Below are positions 1,288 to 64,000 of a stretch of DNA of 64,000 bases, in pieces. The stretch comes from Phormidium tenue FACHB-1052 (GTDB taxonomy: Bacteria; Cyanobacteriota; Cyanobacteriia; Phormidesmidales; Phormidesmidaceae), in the NCBI RefSeq assembly GCF_014696675.1, contig NZ_JACJQN010000001.1, positions 744,001 through 808,000 of the forward strand, written 5' to 3'. The notes under the pieces are model-generated. The model was not told the origin of the DNA and made no database searches. It saw only the letters and a program-made list of their open reading frames with translations. The position numbers and the translations under genes are program-made. Position 1 is the first letter of the stretch, and every line of letters begins with the position of its first letter.

Positions 1288-2622
1288 ATGGACTCTGAAC
1301 CCCCAAGTCTGCGTCTGCTGATCACGATGAATTTAGGCTTTTGGGGAGTGCAGATTGGCAATGGTCTGCAAACTGCCCACGCCAGTGCCGTTTTTGAGAG
1401 CCTGGGGGCCGAGGCCAGCCAGTTGCCCCTGCTGTGGCTGGGGGCACCGTTGATGGGGCTGCTGGCCCAGCCGATTGTTGGCGAACTCAGCGATCGCACC
1501 GTCAGCCGCTGGGGCAAGCGGCAGCCCTACTTTCTGGGCGGTGCGGTGATCGGAGCGGCGATGCTGGTGACGATGCCCATGGCCACCAGTCTGATGCAGG
1601 CGGTGGCGCTGTACTGGGTGCTACAGCTCGCCCTCAATGTCAGCGTTGCCCCCAGTCGCCCCTTTGTGGGGGATTTGCTGTCTCCGGCCCATCGCACCCT
1701 GGGCTACTCGCTCCAGGGGTTCTGCATTGGGCTGGGCACCATCTGCGCGGCGGGGTTGCCCTGGATGTTAGAGCATGTCTTTCGCCTAGAACCCGTCTCC
1801 CACGCCGGTATTCCCGACGTGATTCGCGGAGCCTACTGGGTGGGGGCAGCGTTTTGTTTAGTCGGTACCCTGGCCACTTTTTGGGCCGTGGAGGAACCGA
1901 CCCACGAGGTGATGGCTCTCCCTCACGAACCAGCGGGCGATCGCCTACCGATGCTAGCGGCGATCGCTCAGGCGGTAACGGATCTGCCCCCGATGATGCG
2001 GCATCTGGCGGCGGTGCAAGCCCTGAGCTGGGCTGGCATCTACTGCATTTTTGTGTACCTGCCCAATGCGATCGCCCTCAACGTTTTGGCCACCCCCGAC
2101 CGTTCCATAACCAGTTATGCCCACGGCGTGGAGTGGGCCGGTCTTTGTACAGCCTTTTATAACCTGGTCTGCCTTGGGGTTTCCTGGGCCATTCCCTCCC
2201 TGAGCCAGCGCTGGGGTCGGGTGACGGTGCATGCCTGTTTTCTGATGGCTGGCTGCGTGGGCCTGCTGTCACTGCTGCTGGTGCACAGCCGCTACCCGGT
2301 ACTGCTCTCAATGGTGGGGCTGGGCATCGCCTGGGCCAGCATCTTGTCCATTCCCTACTCGCTGCTGATGGATGACCTGGCAGAGGGCCAGAGCGGCGTC
2401 TACATGGGGATTTTCAACGGCTTTATTACCCTGCCTCAGATCGCCATGTCCCTGGGGTTTGGCTGGGTCATGAAGGCTCTGCTGCAAGACAATCGCCTTT
2501 GGGCGCTGGCGCTGGGGGGCATCTTCCTGGGGCTGGCGGCTTTGCTCATGTTGCGCGTACCAGAACCCACTGGGGCTGATGAAAGCAAATCGGCAAGTGC
2601 CCTGGCTACAGCGCAAAAATAG
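1288..2622 (+). CDS. MFS transporter, sugar (GPH/SLC45-like) type
   Basis: A polytopic membrane protein of about 444 residues with roughly 12 hydrophobic helices. The N-terminal half carries an MFS-like loop (GELSDRTVSRWGKRQPY) between helices 2 and 3, and later NVSVAPSRPFVGDLLSP. These recall the glycoside/sucrose-type (GPH, SLC45) branch of the superfamily, so the substrate may be a disaccharide; that is inference. The frame is open from an ATG at 1222, but the extra 22 residues do not look coding-like, so the ATG at 1288 is preferred. Neither start has a clear ribosome binding site. The gene stands alone. Confidence 0.8.
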   Translation: MDSEPPSLRLLITMNLGFWGVQIGNGLQTAHASAVFESLGAEASQLPLLWLGAPLMGLLAQPIVGELSDRTVSRWGKRQPYFLGGAVIGAAMLVTMPMATSLMQAVALYWVLQLALNVSVAPSRPFVGDLLSPAHRTLGYSLQGFCIGLGTICAAGLPWMLEHVFRLEPVSHAGIPDVIRGAYWVGAAFCLVGTLATFWAVEEPTHEVMALPHEPAGDRLPMLAAIAQAVTDLPPMMRHLAAVQALSWAGIYCIFVYLPNAIALNVLATPDRSITSYAHGVEWAGLCTAFYNLVCLGVSWAIPSLSQRWGRVTVHACFLMAGCVGLLSLLLVHSRYPVLLSMVGLGIAWASILSIPYSLLMDDLAEGQSGVYMGIFNGFITLPQIAMSLGFGWVMKALLQDNRLWALALGGIFLGLAALLMLRVPEPTGADESKSASALATAQK

Positions 2623-2723
2623 CTACAACGGGAGACTTGACCTGCCCCCTTTGAGCGATGTGGCCAACCCTTTCAGAAAGTTACTTTGGTTTTATTCAAA
2701 CGCTACTCAAAGAGGTGAATCCC

Positions 2724-3074
2724 ATGGATACTCAAAATTCTGAAGAGCGCAAGCCCATCAGCCAGCCCCTCACCCCTGAGGAGGTTTCTCCCGAGCAGCG
2801 GGCGGAAATGAAAAGAGCCATGAAAGAAGATGACCTCGTGCTCAACCCCGGCGACTACGTCAAGGGCGAAAAGACACTCGAAGAAAAGTCTAAGCAGGTA
2901 GCGGTTGACACGGCTGACATTACGGGCGATCGCATCGTCGTCCCCACCTACTTCGTTGTCGATGACACTGATGGAGAACAAAAAGCTCTGCACCACATCA
3001 AGGATGCAGAGGAAATCTCCGACGTCATTCGCCAGGCCCGCATTGATGAAGACGGCAATCGCACCTGGAACTAG
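2724..3074 (+). CDS. Conserved hypothetical acidic protein
   Basis: I do not recognise the family. The 116-residue product is soluble, charged and lacks membrane segments. The middle contains LNPGDYVKGEKTLEEKS and then a more ordered part (ITGDRIVVPTYFVVDD, HHIKDAEEISDVIRQARIDE). The open frame extends up to 2658, but AGAGGTGA immediately before the ATG at 2724 favours that start. The next gene begins 23 nt after the stop, so the two are probably cotranscribed. Confidence 0.7.
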   Translation: MDTQNSEERKPISQPLTPEEVSPEQRAEMKRAMKEDDLVLNPGDYVKGEKTLEEKSKQVAVDTADITGDRIVVPTYFVVDDTDGEQKALHHIKDAEEISDVIRQARIDEDGNRTWN

Positions 3075-3097
3075 CCCCATCCCAGCTTTGCTCCACC

Positions 3098-3361
3098 ATG
3101 AAATACCCTGCCCATAACCCCAACGCTTCTGTCCTGTCAGTCAGGGCTCAAGACAGCAGCTTGCCTGCTTTTCTGACTCGGGTTTCGCTGTCTATTCTGG
3201 CGCTGCCCTTGGGTGGATACGTCCTCGGTAGCCTTGCTGACAGGCAGCTACAAGGGGAAATTTCCTGGGCGATCGCCGTGGCCCTGCTGGGCTTAACCGC
3301 TGGGCTAATCCACCTCTGGATGTGGATGAAACGCCCGGCCCCTGAACAGACTCTCAAATAG
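3098..3361 (+). CDS. Small two-helix membrane protein
   Basis: An 87-residue protein of unknown function. After a polar N-terminus of about 25 residues there are two hydrophobic helices (about residues 27-46 and 57-76) separated by a short polar loop, with a basic C-terminus (MKRPAPEQTLK). Such a hairpin topology is common among small cyanobacterial envelope proteins. It follows the preceding hypothetical gene closely. Confidence 0.6.
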   Translation: MKYPAHNPNASVLSVRAQDSSLPAFLTRVSLSILALPLGGYVLGSLADRQLQGEISWAIAVALLGLTAGLIHLWMWMKRPAPEQTLK

Positions 3362-3579
3362 TCGAGGTTTGTGGGCATGAGTTCCGCCTTCCCTAGAAAG
3401 CGGGGTCGGGGCAAATGCTACTCTATAAGCTGGTTTAGCAGACTGCTAAACCAGCTAGCTGCCGTATTTACTCTCAGAAGTTCCTGGCCAAAGCTATGTT
3501 CACGCCAGCCTGAGGTATACCCCACACCCATCTCTGGTGTGGTCGCTAGCTTACTCGACTGTATCGCTACTGCGCCCCT

Positions 3580-4173
3580 ATGTTAGAACCTTCGCTGCTG
3601 CGCGCCCTAGTCTGGACAGACTATCGACTAGCGGTTTTATTCACCGTATTTTTGCCCCTGGTGCTGCTGATTTGGGCCTTTGTGCAAAAAAACGAATCCA
3701 TTCAGCACCTGCTCACCATCTACTGGAAGGTGGCCAGCCTGCTAATGATCACCGTCTATCTGATGATCGGCGGCTTTAATATCAGCTTTTTATCAGGGCT
3801 GATGGCGCGCATCCTGATTCCGGTGGGGCTGTGGTTTTGGGTAGACCTCAACGAAGAGATTCGCGAACAGCCCGACTCGCTGCTCAAGCTGCTGTTTAGC
3901 GCCTGGCGCTGGGCCATCACCCTCTACAACATCATTGGCGGGGCGATTGTACTCGGCTTTTTGCCCTGCGCCTTCTCCAACGCCCGCTTTGGCGCGGCTG
4001 ACTGCCAAACCTGGCTAGAGCCACCGCTGCTCTACAAAGAATATTTCCACGCGGGCTATACCAACGGATTTTTAGGCTTCTTTGGCATTTTGGGCCTGGT
4101 GGTTTATATGGCTTGCCTAGCCTGGTTTGTGTTTGTGCGCCTGGGCAAACAGGGTCGCCAGGCAATCAATTAA
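3580..4173 (+). CDS. DUF3177 family membrane protein
   Basis: A 197-residue integral membrane protein with about four or five hydrophobic helices. The sequence matches what I know of DUF3177, a family confined to cyanobacteria: an N-terminal LVWTDYRLAVLFTVFLPL helix, a central WFWVDLNEEI loop, and a C-terminal FLGFFGILGLVVYM helix. The function is unknown. The next gene starts six bases after the stop, implying a two-gene operon. Confidence 0.8.
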   Translation: MLEPSLLRALVWTDYRLAVLFTVFLPLVLLIWAFVQKNESIQHLLTIYWKVASLLMITVYLMIGGFNISFLSGLMARILIPVGLWFWVDLNEEIREQPDSLLKLLFSAWRWAITLYNIIGGAIVLGFLPCAFSNARFGAADCQTWLEPPLLYKEYFHAGYTNGFLGFFGILGLVVYMACLAWFVFVRLGKQGRQAIN

Positions 4174-4179
4174 TTTGCC

Positions 4180-4473
4180 ATGACTCCCGGTTTTCGACTA
4201 GAACAATACACTCTACGGATACCCCAAGTGGTGCTGCTGGTGCAGGCGATCAGCGATGGAGAAGTCGACGAGGTACTAATTTTTCGCGGCTTCTCTAGCT
4301 CACTGATGCACCCTACGGCAGCCGACCCTGAGGTGCCCGTACTGCCTGGAACCGCTGATATTAAGGCCATTGATATCATGGCTGGCCCCTACAATCCCGC
4401 TGCGCCTCAATACCTGCACCGGGGCCTTTCCTGGACTGACATGCTGCCTTTGTTAGAATCTGCTGGGGTTTAG
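4180..4473 (+). CDS. Conserved hypothetical protein (DUF7734-like)
   Basis: A 97-residue soluble protein conserved, to my knowledge, between cyanobacteria and plastid-targeted plant proteins. Recognisable stretches are YTLRIPQVVLLVQA, GEVDEVLIFRGFSSSLM and an aspartate/proline-rich segment (YNPAAPQYLHRGLSW). The family assignment is from memory and tentative; no biochemical function is known to me. It lies six bases downstream of the DUF3177 gene and is probably cotranscribed. Confidence 0.65.
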   Translation: MTPGFRLEQYTLRIPQVVLLVQAISDGEVDEVLIFRGFSSSLMHPTAADPEVPVLPGTADIKAIDIMAGPYNPAAPQYLHRGLSWTDMLPLLESAGV

Positions 4474-4574
4474 GGGTTGTTTTGGGGAAAGCAATGGGTG
4501 CGGGGTTTATAGGGTGAAGACTCTGCTAAACCTGGCTCCCATCCTTAGACCCTGTACCTTGCACCCTATACCCT

Positions 4575-5948
4575 CTACTCCTCTGTCTTCTCTTCCCGCA
4601 GATGCTTGGGTTGCCACCCTTCGTGATTTTTTTGGGGGGCGCGGGAAACGACGAGGCAGTTGTCGGGGGCATCTTTGCGTACCACTGACCCGGCGGCGAT
4701 GGTGACGTCGCTACCGATGGTGATGGGGGCAACGAGCACACTGTTGCTGCCGGTTTTGGTGCGATCGCCAATCACAGTCGGGTGCTTTTTATAGCCGTCG
4801 TAATTCGCCGTAATCGTCCCCGCTCCCACATTCACCTTATTGCCCAGGGTAGCGTCGCCGAGGTAAGACAGGTGAGCCACGTTGGTGCCCGCCCCCAGGG
4901 CCGATTTCTTAATTTCCACAAAGTTGCCGATGCGGCAGTTGTCGCCCACTACCGCATCGCCTCGCAGGTGGGCATAGGGACCAACTCGCGTACCATTGCC
5001 CACGGTGCTGTTACTCACCACCGAAAAGGCTACGGTGGCATCGGCCCCAATTTGACTGTTTTCAATCAGGCTACCGGGGCCAATGCGGCTGCCGGTGCCT
5101 ACCGTGGTTTTGCCCCGCAGATGGGTCTGGGGTTCGATCACCACATCAGGTTCAAGCTGGACGGTGGTGTCAATGGTGGTGCTGTCGGGGTCAATCAGGG
5201 TCACCCCCGCCGCCATCCAGTAGTCTTTGATGCGGTCTTGCAGAATAGCGTAGGCTTCGGCGAGCTGCTTGCGGCTGTTAATGCCAAAAATCTCCTGGCA
5301 GTCTTCTACATCTACCGCCATGGCCGGGGTCAGGTCTTTGACCACGTCAGTGAGGTAATACTCCTGCTGGTCGTTGTCGGCGCTGAGGTGGGGCAGCACC
5401 GTCATCAGCTTGGCCCAGTTAAAGCAGTAGATCCCGGCGTTGATACGCGGATTTTGGCGCTGGGCAGGGCTACAGTCGCGGTGCTCAACAATTTCGGTAA
5501 TCAAATTTTGCTCGGTGCAAAACACTCGCCCATAACCCGTGGGGTCGGTGAACTGGGCCGTGAGCAGGGTGGCGGCGTTGCCCTTGCCTTGATGGGTTTT
5601 GACCAGGGTTTGAATGGTTTCGGGTCGCAGCAGCGGCACATCGCCGTTGAGCACCAGCAAATCGCCATCAAACCCCTCCAGATGAGGAATCACCTGCTGC
5701 ACAGCGTGGCCAGTGCCGAGCTGTTCGGTCTGCTCCACAAAGGTGAGACCGGGGATGTGGGCTAGGGCCGCTTTCACCTGATCTTGGCCAAAGCCGACAA
5801 CGATGATGGTGTGGCTGGGGTTGAGGTCGGCTAGCCCATCCAGCACGCGCTCGACCATTGATTTGCCGCCTACCGAGTGCAGCACCTTGGGCAGGCTCGA
5901 TTTCATGCGGGTGCCGCGCCCGGCGGCAAGAATGGCGACAGCGACCAT
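4575..5948 (-). CDS. glmU: Bifunctional GlmU (GlcNAc-1-P uridyltransferase / GlcN-1-P acetyltransferase)
   Basis: GlmU makes UDP-N-acetylglucosamine for peptidoglycan and outer-envelope glycans: it acetylates glucosamine-1-phosphate, then uridylates the product. The 457-residue length is typical. The N-terminal nucleotidyltransferase has LAAGRGTRM at residues 7-15 with a conserved Pro-Lys at 20-21. The C-terminal half is a left-handed beta-helix of hexapeptide repeats ([26 protein letters not shown]) and carries the acetyltransferase histidine in AHLSYLGDA. It is not obviously in an operon; a G-rich spacer separates it from the FTR1 gene upstream. Confidence 0.97.
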
Positions 5949-60692: not shown

Positions 60693-60760
60693 ACGGAAGC
60701 AGATAATGCCGAATCCGGCTTGTTTAACTGTAAGTTGAGATTTCGCAAGTAGCGATCGCC

Positions 60761-63700
60761 CTAAAACGGCACATCCTTGTCGGCGTGGGAGGGTTGCTTA
60801 GCTGCCGCCTCCGAGGGCTTCAGCAGCGTTTTATCAATCCCAGGGCTTAGGTCATCGTCCAAATCGACCACTTGGCCGTTAAAGAAATGGGCAAAGTTTT
60901 TTACCGCTCGATCAAAGTCGCTGGCGATCGCAGGTAAAGACGGCGGCGCAGGAGCAGCGGAACTGGCGTCTGCCGCAAGAGCAGGTTCAGGAGTTGCCAC
61001 CGGTTCTGCTGACGCGTCTGCCGGGGGCGCTGCAACGACAGGCGGGGGCGGAGGACTGAAAACCACTGGAGTGGGTGGAGTGGTATTTTGCTGCCCCGGC
61101 GCCTGGGAGATGTTGGGGGCTGGGGCCTCAGGCTTTGGGTCGGGCAGCACCTCCAGGGAAACCTGCACTTTGTGGTTGAGCACCTGCTGAAAGGCCGCCT
61201 CCACATTCTCGACGCGGCCCTGGGCCATCTTAAACAGTGGTCGAGAGCTGATGCCGACTCGGGCCACCACCCCGTCAAAAAACAGCAGGCTGCCCTGCTG
61301 CTGCATCAGGGCGCGGGTGCCTAAGGGCTCTAGTACGGCGATCACCTGAAGCCACAGCTGCCCCAGGTTAGGGGATGGGGTGGCGTTGGAGGTAGGCGGC
61401 GCGTCTTGGCCATTGTTGGGGGGCGAGTTTGATGCGGCGGCAGGCACGGGAGCTGGCGCTGGCGCTGTGCCATTGGCAGTTTCCGGCGGTAGCGCCGGGT
61501 CTGGTGAGGCGGGCGGCGGCACTGAGGCCGGTGGACTAACAATTGGCGGTGCTGGCTGCGGCGTGGGGATTGGTGCGATCGCCCCTCCGATCGCACCCGA
61601 CGACCGCCCGGCACTGATCGTTCCACCGACTTGCCCAGCCAACGTCGAGGGCAATAGCCCTAGCAGCGTCACTTCCAGCCACAGCCGAGGTTGGGTGGTG
61701 TTTTTGACCTGCCCCTCGGCGCTACGCAGGTGCTGTTGCCCTAGTAGCAGCAATGTTGGATCGAGAGGTTGCACCAGGGTTTGCATGTCAGCCCAGGTGG
61801 GGGGCGTGATAGCGACTAGGTCGTGGCGACCGCCCGCCGTCTTGGCAATCAGCAGATCGCGGTAGAACCCAGCCAGGTTTTGCAGCACAATCAGCGGTTC
61901 CCGGCCCCGATCCATCAGCTTGCGAGCAACGTCGAGCACGGCGGTGCCGTCGTCGCTGAGGATGGCCTGCACCAGGGCCAGCAGATCGCGCTCGGGCACG
62001 GCCCCCACCAGATCCCACACCGCATCGGCTTCTACAGGAGGCGCTAGCAGACTGAGCTGGTCGAGCAAACTCTGGGCATCGCGCAGCCCCCCTTGGGAAA
62101 CCTGGGCCACCAGCCGCAGGGCTTCGTCATTGATAACGATATTTTCCTGGTCGGCAATCTTCCGCAGGTGAGCGATCATCGGCTCTAGGGGAATGCGCCG
62201 GTAGTCAAACCGCTGGCAGCGAGAAATAATCGTCGGCAGCACCCGCTGGGGGTCGGTGGTCGCCAGGATAAACACCACATTGCTAGGTGGTTCCTCTAGG
62301 GTCTTGAGCAGCGCATTAAACGCCGCCGTACTCAACATGTGACAGTTGTGAACCAACAGCCCATTGGCAACAAAATTGTGGTTGTCTTCAACCTCAATGT
62401 CGTAGACCGGCTCAACTCCAGCGGGGCAGACAGATACGACCGTCTCCAAATTTGTAGTCCATTTCAGGAATGGAAAACTTTTGCAGATCGACCAGCCAGC
62501 TCCGAGCCGCCTTTGCCCCCGTTGCGATGTAGTCGTATCGCTTGCCGCTGAAGGCTTTTGTGTAGGATCTGACTTTCGCTGAGTAACCCAAGTCGGTGAG
62601 CCATTCAGCAATGAGCTGATTTTCTGCGGTGGTATAGCCTTCGGTATGGAACTGGATTTGGGGGCTGCCTTGGGGACTGAGGCTGAGGGAGCCATCATCC
62701 ATGTACCACCAGGCAAGTCCTTCTGGAGAAATCTGGGATAACCAGTCGCAGGAAACGACTTTCCATCCACCGTCGCTTCTGACGAGGTTGAAGGCCTGGA
62801 CAAGTTCAGGGTGGCAAACGGTTCGACAACAGATAGAGGTTGCACCGTAGCCGGCATTGGCTGTGCTGTATAGGCTTGGCTGCAAGTTAGAAAGGCGGGA
62901 TGCTTTGTATTCCATCCATGCCCGTTGCTGTTCTCCATGGGTCCAGGCCAGGCGGGGAAATCTGCTGTATTTGTTGGGAGAAATGATGGATCTATCCCCC
63001 AGCAGAGTGCCGTAGATAAGCCCAAGGGTTTCGGCAGAAAGTGGTTTGAGCTGTTCGTTAAGGTGCTCGGTTCTGAGATCCCAAAGCCCATGCCCCTTTC
63101 TGTAAGGGTGTTTTTCCCAATAACTTTGAATGCTTTTGAGTCCTTTCCCTTTTTGCTGCAAGAATTCTGGGATACCCAGCTTTTCGCCACAGCCGCATTT
63201 GCACCTTGGCCGCAGGAATTCAGCTTGCTCAAGGATAAGCTCAAGGCTGTAAGGTTTTTGGCCTTAGGTGTTGCCCCTAAACTGGTGCCCTCGTACGAAA
63301 CGCCGGAGTCGTCGATCAGAGCCAACTCTGTTGATGAGGGTGCCGCAGCCACAGGCGCAGGGGACAAGATCTTGCTCCCCGATTTGATGTCCCTTGCGGC
63401 TACCCATCCCTGATCAGTTCTAATCAAATGATTGCCAGTACATCTGATCCTACGATGAGTAGTCTGAATTTCCAAAATGTCTCGGGTGCCTTGGTCAAGC
63501 CAGCGCAGAACACGCTTAAACTCCCACACGCCTATTTGGTCGTCATAGCTGAGCACCTGCTTACCTTCGATCGCAGGGTCGTCGATCCTGACTAGGCCGT
63601 CTTGGGTAAGTACTAAGGAATCACCAGTCAGGCACTCGTCGATCACATAGACTTTGTAGCGACATTGCACTGGGGCAAATTGGGCGCGCTCGATCAGCTC

Positions 63701-64000
63701 GCGGATGTTATCGACCCCGGTGTTGCTGGCGGCGTCGATTTCAATAAAGTCGAGGGCCGAGCCGTTGGTGATCGAGCGACAGGTTTCGCAGGTGCCGCAG
63801 GGGTTTGGAGTGGGGTGATCTTGGGCAATACAGTTGAGCGACTTGGCCAAAATGCGGGCGCTGGAGGTTTTGCCCGTGCCCCGGGGGCCACAAAACAGGT
63901 AGGCCGGGGCAATGCGCCGCTGGTTGAGGGCGCTGGTGAGGGTAGTCGCGATCGCATCTTGCCCCACCAGAGCGCCAAAGGTCTGGGGGCGATACTTGTG
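60761..64000 (-). CDS. dnaX: DNA polymerase III gamma/tau subunit with intein (N-terminus beyond right edge)
   Basis: The clamp-loader ATPase subunit DnaX. The frame is open to the window edge (HKYRPQTFGALVGQDA...), so only some ten N-terminal residues are missing. Walker A is GPRGTGKTSSA, a zinc knuckle CGTCETC follows, and Walker B YVIDE is interrupted by a 430-residue intein before CHMLSTAAFNALLKTLEE. Sensor motif ISRCQRFDYRRI is intact. The C-terminal third is Pro/Ala-rich tau-like linker and ends in DKDVPF. Mature DnaX after splicing would be about 650 residues. In this frame the intein centre is not an endonuclease, although the -1 frame is. Confidence 0.95.
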   Translation of the reverse strand, partial: HKYRPQTFGALVGQDAIATTLTSALNQRRIAPAYLFCGPRGTGKTSSARILAKSLNCIAQDHPTPNPCGTCETCRSITNGSALDFIEIDAASNTGVDNIRELIERAQFAPVQCRYKVYVIDECLTGDSLVLTQDGLVRIDDPAIEGKQVLSYDDQIGVWEFKRVLRWLDQGTRDILEIQTTHRRIRCTGNHLIRTDQGWVAARDIKSGSKILSPAPVAAAPSSTELALIDDSGVSYEGTSLGATPKAKNLTALSLSLSKLNSCGQGANAAVAKSWVSQNSCSKKGKDSKAFKVIGKNTLTERGMGFGISEPSTLTNSSNHFLPKPLGLSTALCWGIDPSFLPTNTADFPAWPGPMENSNGHGWNTKHPAFLTCSQAYTAQPMPATVQPLSVVEPFATLNLSRPSTSSEATVDGKSFPATGYPRFLQKDLPGGTWMMAPSASVPKAAPKSSSIPKAIPPQKISSLLNGSPTWVTQRKSDPTQKPSAASDTTTSQRGQRRLGAGWSICKSFPFLKWTTNLETVVSVCPAGVEPVYDIEVEDNHNFVANGLLVHNCHMLSTAAFNALLKTLEEPPSNVVFILATTDPQRVLPTIISRCQRFDYRRIPLEPMIAHLRKIADQENIVINDEALRLVAQVSQGGLRDAQSLLDQLSLLAPPVEADAVWDLVGAVPERDLLALVQAILSDDGTAVLDVARKLMDRGREPLIVLQNLAGFYRDLLIAKTAGGRHDLVAITPPTWADMQTLVQPLDPTLLLLGQQHLRSAEGQVKNTTQPRLWLEVTLLGLLPSTLAGQVGGTISAGRSSGAIGGAIAPIPTPQPAPPIVSPPASVPPPASPDPALPPETANGTAPAPAPVPAAASNSPPNNGQDAPPTSNATPSPNLGQLWLQVIAVLEPLGTRALMQQQGSLLFFDGVVARVGISSRPLFKMAQGRVENVEAAFQQVLNHKVQVSLEVLPDPKPEAPAPNISQAPGQQNTTPPTPVVFSPPPPPVVAAPPADASAEPVATPEPALAADASSAAPAPPSLPAIASDFDRAVKNFAHFFNGQVVDLDDDLSPGIDKTLLKPSEAAAKQPSHADKDVPF
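62345..63634 (-). mobile_element. DnaX intein (protein-splicing element)
   Basis: It lies exactly between VIDE and CHMLS. The N-terminal block A starts with Cys (CLTGDSLVLTQDGLVRI), block B is CTGNHLIRT with its histidine, block F is VYDIEVEDNHNFVANG, and block G is LLVHN followed by the extein Cys. All splicing residues (Cys1, block B His, penultimate His, Asn, Cys+1) are present, so it should splice. Length is 430 residues in the DnaX frame. About 300 central residues in this frame resemble no endonuclease; they are the alternative reading of a LAGLIDADG gene in the -1 frame. Confidence 0.93.
62412..63161 (-). CDS. LAGLIDADG homing endonuclease in the -1 frame of the dnaX intein
   Basis: From a TTG at 63161 this frame encodes 249 residues. 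LAGLIDADG motif 1 is GLIYGTLLGDRS (about residues 47-58) and motif 2 is GLAWWYMDDGSL (about 148-159), a two-motif monomeric enzyme. The frame is actually open without a start codon back to 63263, adding KPYSLELILEQAEFLRP and a CKCGCGEKL zinc-like knuckle before residue 1. Further upstream in the same frame, across a TAA at 63264-63266, a second CACGCG knuckle and RRFVRGHQFRG continue the homology to an ATG at 63407. It is one base out of phase with dnaX. It has no good ribosome binding site, so expression may need frameshifting. Confidence 0.85.
   Translation of the reverse strand: MQQKGKGLKSIQSYWEKHPYRKGHGLWDLRTEHLNEQLKPLSAETLGLIYGTLLGDRSIISPNKYSRFPRLAWTHGEQQRAWMEYKASRLSNLQPSLYSTANAGYGATSICCRTVCHPELVQAFNLVRSDGGWKVVSCDWLSQISPEGLAWWYMDDGSLSLSPQGSPQIQFHTEGYTTAENQLIAEWLTDLGYSAKVRSYTKAFSGKRYDYIATGAKAARSWLVDLQKFSIPEMDYKFGDGRICLPRWS

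Follow-up and report, generated by a model that had tools for sequence, protein, structure and literature searches.

The dnaX locus

The window, a stretch of 64,000 nucleotides from Phormidium tenue FACHB-1052, carries at its end and on the reverse strand the replication gene dnaX, which is essential to bacteria. An intein coding sequence is inserted in the gene, and a LAGLIDADG homing endonuclease is encoded in the -1 frame of the same DNA (Table 1). A search of the source genome with a dnaX query gave a single match.

Table 1. Features of the dnaX intein and of related phage loci. Positions are those of the window, except in the phage rows.
Feature	Positions	Strand	Evidence and remarks
dnaX gene (DNA polymerase III tau/gamma)	60761..64000	-	1079-codon open frame; 5' end lies past the window
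DnaX intein, 430 codons, Cys1 to Asn430, +1 Cys	62345..63634	-	Translation; Pfam; NCBIfam
Splicing domain, N-terminal half, residues 1-96	63347..63634	-	High-confidence part of model
Endonuclease DNA as read in the DnaX frame, residues 97-388	62471..63346	-	Stop-free; predicted disordered loop
Splicing domain, C-terminal half, residues 389-430, blocks F and G	62345..62470	-	High-confidence part of model; conserved VYDIEVEDNHNFVANGLLVHN
LAGLIDADG_2 homing endonuclease gene, -1 frame, 331 codons + stop	62412..63407	-	Pfam; interrupted at codon 48; relatives open from same start
Presumed start codon, ATG	63405..63407	-	Overlaps the Gly-Trp codons of block B (GGATGG): third base of Gly, two bases of Trp
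First CxCGCG element (CACGCG)	63342..63359	-	Upstream of TAA; sequence
Premature TAA, endonuclease codon 48	63264..63266	-	Private to the window among closest relatives
Open -1 frame after TAA, 283 codons + stop, 852 nt	62412..63263	-	Contains the whole catalytic core
Second CxCGCG element (CKCGCG)	63186..63203	-	Cysteines invariant (20-row alignment)
LAGLIDADG motif 1 (LGLIYGTLLGDRSI)	62985..63026	-	Asp invariant (20-row alignment)
LAGLIDADG motif 2 (GLAWWYMDDGSLSL)	62679..62720	-	Both Asp invariant (20-row alignment)
Endonuclease stop codon	62412..62414	-	67 nt ahead of intein end, just before block F
Xanthomonas phage FoX3 gp40 (L168, MT161383)	2384-4750		Intein; -1-frame endonuclease of 213 codons, not annotated, with GTG at block B
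Pectobacterium phage Ymer (L166)	2303-5413		Split helicase with overlapping endonuclease gene
Pectobacterium phage Amona (L169)	2324-5434		Split helicase with overlapping endonuclease gene

The translated DnaX frame was unbroken across the intein (CLTGDS...LLVHN/C, 63634..62345), with 0 stop codons. The splicing blocks were complete and comprised Cys1, block B (CTGNH...QGW), block F (VYDIEV), block G (LLVHN) and the +1 Cys. The sequence features of a class 1 DnaX intein were all present, namely the N-terminal Cys, the TxxH of block B, the C-terminal His-Asn, the +1 Cys and continuity of the host frame. The intein matched the Pfam family Intein_splicing (E=1.8e-13) and scored over the cut-off for the NCBIfam N- and C-terminal intein regions, which bears out the preliminary description of this DNA, where the splicing blocks at both ends had been assigned to the DnaX frame. 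A model of the whole intein in this frame, obtained with AlphaFold from 26 sequences only, was ordered solely at residues 1–96 and 389–430, while the 292 residues between them had pLDDT values below 50, at about 30. The best PDB match of the model in a fold search was the DnaX mini-intein 7cfv. The central segment had no Pfam family up to E=10, in agreement with the long, stop-free and low-sense centre noticed earlier. Protein splicing in this genome is inferred from the intact splicing domain and remains a prediction.

The separate protein search of the -1 frame, proposed in the same description, did give an endonuclease family, Pfam LAGLIDADG_2 (PF03161, E=1.2e-20), and both LAGLIDADG motifs were recovered as claimed. 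From the block B start the frame measured 996 nt including the stop. Beyond the premature TAA, both frames were open for 852 nt, from 63263 to the stop at 62414..62412, close to the figure of about 850 nt given previously. A model of the 283 codons after the TAA (AlphaFold, 31 sequences) had a pLDDT of 87.3 and a pTM of 0.74. By both fold and profile, the closest solved structures were I-SceI and I-WcaI (profile E 1.5e-11 and 2.1e-14, respectively). These two enzymes are intron-encoded and share ~18–20% identity with the model in structural alignments, and the match covers the catalytic part alone, leaving out the N-terminal part with the CxCGCG elements. Any metal-binding role of the CxCGCG elements is a guess. 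A PHROGs search matched phrog_11023, a homing endonuclease with LAGLIDADG motif, and the three endonucleases submitted to NCBIfam matched no model there up to E=0.01. The two motifs with their Asp residues, the family profile and the fold identify a LAGLIDADG homing endonuclease, from which cleavage of the intein-less allele is inferred.

The gene is interrupted in this genome, however, and so fails the expectation of an uninterrupted endonuclease gene. The closest relatives (L034, from Nodosilinea sp. FACHB-131, and L035) have a sense codon where the window has TAA, and the in-frame stop at codon 48 indicates that the enzyme was probably inactivated recently. Eighteen substitutions were assigned to the window lineage in this region, and since 11 of them fell at endonuclease third positions, constraint on the endonuclease held until recently. 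Among the 20 aligned rows, an Arg following the Asp of motif 1 was found in the window only. Both catalytic motifs lie downstream of the TAA, where a TTG-started ORF of 249 aa is present; a shorter product from such a later start is possible, in the absence of expression data. The preliminary suggestion that the enzyme is made separately from the spliced protein thus holds here for a truncated or re-initiated product at best, and it is an inference, not a demonstrated fact, for every genome. The intein has probably been left competent for splicing and incapable of homing.

The class genome search gave one match to the -1-frame endonuclease in the source genome. Three LAGLIDADG_3 matches (L001, L002 and L003; contigs 1 and 36) were seen in long open frames of 1101 and 1372 codons in the same genome; these are probably other, in-frame inteins.

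Conservation of the overlap in cyanobacteria

Species genomes were scanned with an alignment of 20 endonuclease proteins, which gave 66 loci, 52 of them cyanobacterial (L034–L085). Pairing with both exteins was possible for 49 of the 52, and no DnaX-frame stop was present in any of these, without an open frame having been a condition of the pairing. The endonuclease started in the -1 frame at a recognised block B in 47 of the 49 paired loci, and the remaining two (L066 and L071) were read in a later parse. The -1 offset was common to Nostoc, Microcoleus, Planktothrix, Microcystis, Pseudanabaena, Leptolyngbya and others.

The later parse covered 57 inteins, being the window, 50 of the 52 named loci and six class loci (L007, L008, L015, L017, L018 and L023). 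L036 and L047, whose contigs end without a C-extein, were left out. An open DnaX frame was required at this stage, and no locus was lost by it, the two dropped ones being those that lack the C-extein. DnaX-frame stops were found in 0 of the 57 inteins. The endonuclease frame was open for at least 270 codons in 49 of them, 48 of which were apparently full length, while premature stops were present in six, the window included, and in-frame deletions had shortened three. The host frame was therefore never broken, whereas the endonuclease frame sometimes was. The endonuclease ended 49–91 nt ahead of the intein end, most commonly at 67 nt (25 of the 43 relatives in which this end was undisturbed), and motif residues were invariant or nearly so in the 20 aligned endonucleases. 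Because it starts in block B and stops just ahead of block F, the endonuclease is taken to be a nested gene with ends that overlap the splicing blocks. To judge from the parsed sequences, the overlap is the rule among related dnaX inteins and not a peculiarity of the source genome. A -1 frame riddled with stops in the relatives, with unconserved motifs, had been named beforehand as the pattern that would refute the overlap; it was looked for and was absent.

Longer inteins of 512–522 codons were seen in two Laspinema loci (L077 and L078) and in L023. They carry extra CxCGCG segments in the endonuclease, and the added length leaves both frames open; in Laspinema the block B start reads CTG. Genome G084 has a second, damaged copy of dnaX (contig 8, L030) that carries this overlapping type of intein, with two stops in the endonuclease frame. 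The Bacillaceae loci (L086–L099) were distant LAGLIDADG_2 relatives, the ORFs of L086 and L091 measuring 316 and 321 codons from stop to stop.

Selection on the two frames

The extent to which the endonuclease sequence alone would leave the DnaX frame open was estimated by shuffling synonymous codons in the 49 open endonuclease genes, a set without the interrupted gene of the window. The shuffling gave an expectation of 5.79 DnaX-frame stops per gene, against 0 observed, and the largest stop-free share of shuffles for any gene was 0.0085. For the third forward frame of the same genes 20.3 stops were observed and 21.0 expected. The earlier statement that such openness is improbable by chance is upheld by these values. 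Endonuclease-synonymous third-base changes across 22 disjoint pairs would likewise be expected by chance to have created 32.6 DnaX-frame stops, and none was seen.

Rates of substitution were compared by frame in aligned relatives, as the preliminary description had recommended, and changes were concentrated at endonuclease third positions. In the overlap, the rates at endonuclease positions 1, 2 and 3 were 0.183, 0.121 and 0.348 (183 pairs at distances of 0.10–0.25); in the N-terminal splicing half, those at DnaX positions 1, 2 and 3 were 0.192, 0.123 and 0.497. The third-position bias of the endonuclease was present at all distances, and in each distance bin the endonuclease frame exceeded the DnaX frame in amino acid identity. 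L058, which reaches 294 codons before a premature stop, belongs to the 49-gene set and was excluded from the 48-gene rate analyses. Kinship makes these sequences non-independent, and the pair counts carry no correction for it. At 475 informative synonymous changes, the replacements in the DnaX frame had a mean BLOSUM score of -1.64 against an expected -1.47, being slightly less conservative than expected. No amino acid conservation of the DnaX-frame middle beyond the avoidance of stops was detected in this substitution analysis of the overlap.

These comparisons show protein-level selection on the putative endonuclease in the relatives. They also show that the middle of the DnaX frame is apparently selected against stops only and otherwise drifts. 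From the substitution rates, the BLOSUM comparison and the AlphaFold models, the host frame is predicted to read the endonuclease gene as an unstructured, stop-free loop.

Presumed start codon of the endonuclease

The place of the presumed start codon in block B was occupied by GGATGG in 54 of the 57 inteins, GCATGG in one and GGCTGG in two, so that an NTG codon was present in all 57, with CTG in two. The block B Gly was encoded by GGA in 54 of 57 inteins, compared with 38% GGA elsewhere in the splicing blocks. This bias was rejected as proof of start-codon use: GGATGG is also retained by inteins without an endonuclease, and the bias may therefore be inherited. Shine-Dalgarno pairing was a modest improvement on expectation, averaging -2.6 kcal/mol over 40 distinct upstream sequences, against an expected -1.45 kcal/mol, with a median quantile of 0.295. 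Pairing in the window was poor (-0.1 kcal/mol), and the weakness of the predicted ribosome binding counts against an internal start. A -1-frame stop lay 1–29 codons upstream of the block B start in the 57 inteins. Slippery heptamers of the type X XXY YYZ were found in the scanned stretch of two of the 57 only, other types of slip site being outside the scan, and the conserved heptamer before or early in the overlap that would mark a programmed -1 frameshift was thus missing.

Distribution

The -1-frame protein was found, whole or partial, in 26 of 388 genomes of the class, that of the window included. The dnaX query matched in 353 of the 388, and at least 49 of these 353 genomes also matched along the N-terminal half of the intein, among the matches listed. 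The endonuclease frame reached at least 276 codons from the block B start in 19 of 49 inteins among the matches listed; in the others it was shortened, or interrupted as in the window, and many carried remnants. No DnaX-frame stop was present in this table of 49 listed inteins, in which the block B start of L147 was not read and L120 and L165 are from the same genome. Distances between inteins and between exteins were discordant for some pairs, with a correlation of 0.60 at fourfold sites. Homing would give discordance of this kind, an expectation that was considered without trees.

Phage relatives

Helicase inteins with a -1-frame endonuclease and no host-frame stop were found in two viral contigs (L100 and L102) and in Xanthomonas phage FoX3, inserted after Asp-Glu as in dnaX. 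Shuffling gave expectations of 4.24, 2.17 and 2.53 stops for L100, L102 and FoX3, with stop-free shares of 0.002, 0.056 and 0.030, and on account of these shares the evidence from each of the three is modest. Their block B codons were CTG, TTG and GTG, and in L100 and L102 an additional ATG lies farther upstream. Together with the occurrence in many cyanobacterial genera, these inteins bear out the stable overlapping-gene arrangement put forward in the preliminary description. The FoX3 gene carries the annotation 'putative DNA helicase' and, in a RefSeq record, 'head morphogenesis'.

The helicase of the Pectobacterium phages Ymer and Amona is divided between two ORFs. An annotated endonuclease gene bridges them, overlapping the tail of the first ORF and the head of the second and lying in the -1 frame of each; in Ymer, 13 host-frame stops separate the helicase halves. 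The helicase was similarly broken in Escherichia phages AN_ECEAS (from translations) and ES (from annotation only). The phages Koroua, Abuela and Sabo were also among the hits. In a further viral contig (L101, IMGVR_UViG_3300027896_004357, 2986-5677), the N-terminal half of a helicase intein ends at a stop and is followed by a related endonuclease and then by the C-terminal half, which has an ATG directly after the endonuclease stop and a different register; it has the appearance of a split intein whose putative halves enclose the enzyme. In-frame relatives were found in RNA ligase inteins (phage KLEP7 and Miltoncostaea, whose +1 frames hold 14 and 7 stops) and in a terminase. The plasmid scan returned one record, an in-frame RNA ligase relative. 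Viral scans gave no match with the Ymer endonuclease, FoX3 only with that of FoX3, and only L102 and L100 with that of L102.

A tree of 28 endonucleases contained a branch with 98/99 support that separated 16 overlapping and four split cases from three in-frame and five other sequences. Order inside the overlapping and split group was unresolved, and several branches were long. It is possible, though somewhat short of probable, that a distinct I-SceI-like clade exists as a gene of its own in the -1 frame of inteins, starting at an NTG in block B. The host frame would have been kept free of stops in cyanobacterial dnaX and in phage helicases, or lost in the Pectobacterium and Escherichia phages to give a split intein with a restart within the 3' end of the endonuclease gene. 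If this is true, overlapping endonuclease genes are a route to natural split inteins.

Origin and maintenance of the overlapping frames

The locus is very probably a mobile DnaX intein in which the homing endonuclease is no domain of the intein; it would be an overlapping gene nested in the -1 frame, with a start and stop of its own. A ribosome would read dnaX straight through the intein, and the splicing halves, as inferred from homology, would fold round a flexible loop, which would be discarded along with the splicing domain. Separate translation of the endonuclease would begin on this mRNA at the NTG of block B; internal initiation there is inferred from the constant position, the upstream -1-frame stops and the small number of slippery sites. 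By cutting empty dnaX sites, into which the intein would be copied, the enzyme would allow spread by homing, an inference based on the enzyme family and the patchy presence of the intein. Once the enzyme had decayed, the intein would persist by splicing alone, as is probably so in this genome.

Two linked compensating indels, which the preliminary description had offered as an alternative, or sequencing errors, might have shifted an ordinary in-frame endonuclease in this one genome. Nothing beyond the view from a single genome supports such an origin, which is left with practically no chance by the recurrence of the same offset in independent assemblies, in many genera and in phage helicase inteins. 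Synthesis by -1 ribosomal frameshifting, with the endonuclease fused to the N-terminal part of DnaX and the N-terminal half of the intein, would suit the openness of both frames downstream of block B and the weak ribosome-binding signal, and programmed frameshifting is known for the dnaX of some bacteria. It is nevertheless unlikely, given the -1-frame stops shortly ahead of the start, the near absence of slippery heptamers and the NTG kept in every intein parsed; the two phage inteins without an ATG at the block B spot (CTG and TTG) are neutral on the matter.

The -1 frame could also be a relic everywhere, with no enzyme made and the pattern due to shared ancestry. The endonuclease is indeed interrupted in the source genome and in five further inteins of the 57, three more are shortened, and at least 276 codons are kept in just the 19 of 49 class inteins noted among the matches listed. 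A relic would not be expected to retain the third-position bias at all distances, catalytic Asp residues invariant in 20 sequences, or the third-position excess on the window lineage, and this reading is very unlikely. That the middle of the DnaX frame is itself a functional protein segment, both frames being useful, is suggested by its long conserved openness and a few invariant columns; those columns are expected because the endonuclease codons are conserved, and with replacements no more conservative than expected, predicted disorder and no Pfam match, a function of the segment is exceedingly improbable. Placement of the endonuclease in an RNA intron nested within the intein and excised before translation would be in keeping with the closeness to the intron-encoded I-SceI and I-WcaI, but an excised intron would need no stop-free DnaX frame. 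Rfam searches for intron families found none at gathering scores in L034, L045, L102 and L168, nor any among matches up to E=5 in the window at 60700-64000, and a nested intron has scarcely any chance of being the explanation.

As a nested gene within an intein, the arrangement constitutes a natural dual-coding pair of ~1 kb in bacteria, with an essential replication gene as one partner and a clear reason why each frame persists: the host requires freedom from stops, and the parasite requires its protein. Splicing and mobility are separated within one element, and selection on each frame can be measured. Surveys of the host frame alone would record no endonuclease in such inteins and misinterpret their low-sense middle.

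Comparison with known systems

Homing endonucleases, inteins and out-of-frame endonucleases (ShiLan, PMC11855218, as far as the available part of that report goes) are already known kinds. An out-of-frame endonuclease inside an intein was not found in the available parts of the literature consulted (PMC11855218, PMC3443213, PMC11835236, PMC8529194, PMC12455656, PMC8899391, PMC3229294, PMC5009743 and PMC6293099). The variant not met in those portions is an out-of-frame LAGLIDADG gene that lies within an intact splicing domain and has been retained across much of a bacterial class, and its priority is left open. In the accessible part of PMC11855218, Gorbalenya 1998, 'Non-canonical inteins', is cited (reference 53) in a sentence on overlapping reading frames. 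The present case may already have been reported there or by Liu and Hu in 1997, and unpublished status is not claimed. The work of Liu and Hu is said to concern the Ssp DnaX intein.

The Ssp DnaX intein of Synechocystis, like that of the window, is 430 aa long. The DnaX inteins of Synechocystis (Ssp DnaX, PMC3443213) and Spirulina (7cfv) lie in the same host protein as that of the window, and the latter has the nearest fold to its splicing domain. Both have been studied as mini-inteins for splicing. The insertion of ShiLan, as described in the available part of PMC11855218, resembles the window in having an endonuclease out of frame with its own start and stop within the insertion, a stop-free host frame and a patchy distribution. 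It differs in that the enzyme is HNH, where that of the window is LAGLIDADG_2, in that no intein splicing domain was detected, so that the host protein retains the insertion, and in being from a phage and not a bacterial chromosome. The window thus shares the out-of-frame endonuclease and stop-free host frame of the ShiLan type, but not the HNH enzyme without a splicing domain.

The resemblance to full-length inteins of the ordinary kind lies in the splicing domain at the ends, the LAGLIDADG enzyme in the middle and the same presumed homing cycle. Ordinary full-length inteins such as PI-SceI have an in-frame LAGLIDADG domain. Their endonuclease is a domain in the host frame, with a +1 frame full of stops, as in the 14 and 7 counted above, whereas the window enzyme occupies the -1 frame. 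The 'fractured genes' of Dassa in 2009 are reportedly split inteins whose halves flank an endonuclease gene. The split inteins of Ymer and Amona share with the window a related endonuclease in the -1 frame of both halves, overlapping each. In Ymer the host frame is broken by its 13 stops and restarted, giving two ORFs, while in the window the intein is contiguous within one continuous DnaX frame, and the comparison offers a concrete path from a contiguous to a split intein.
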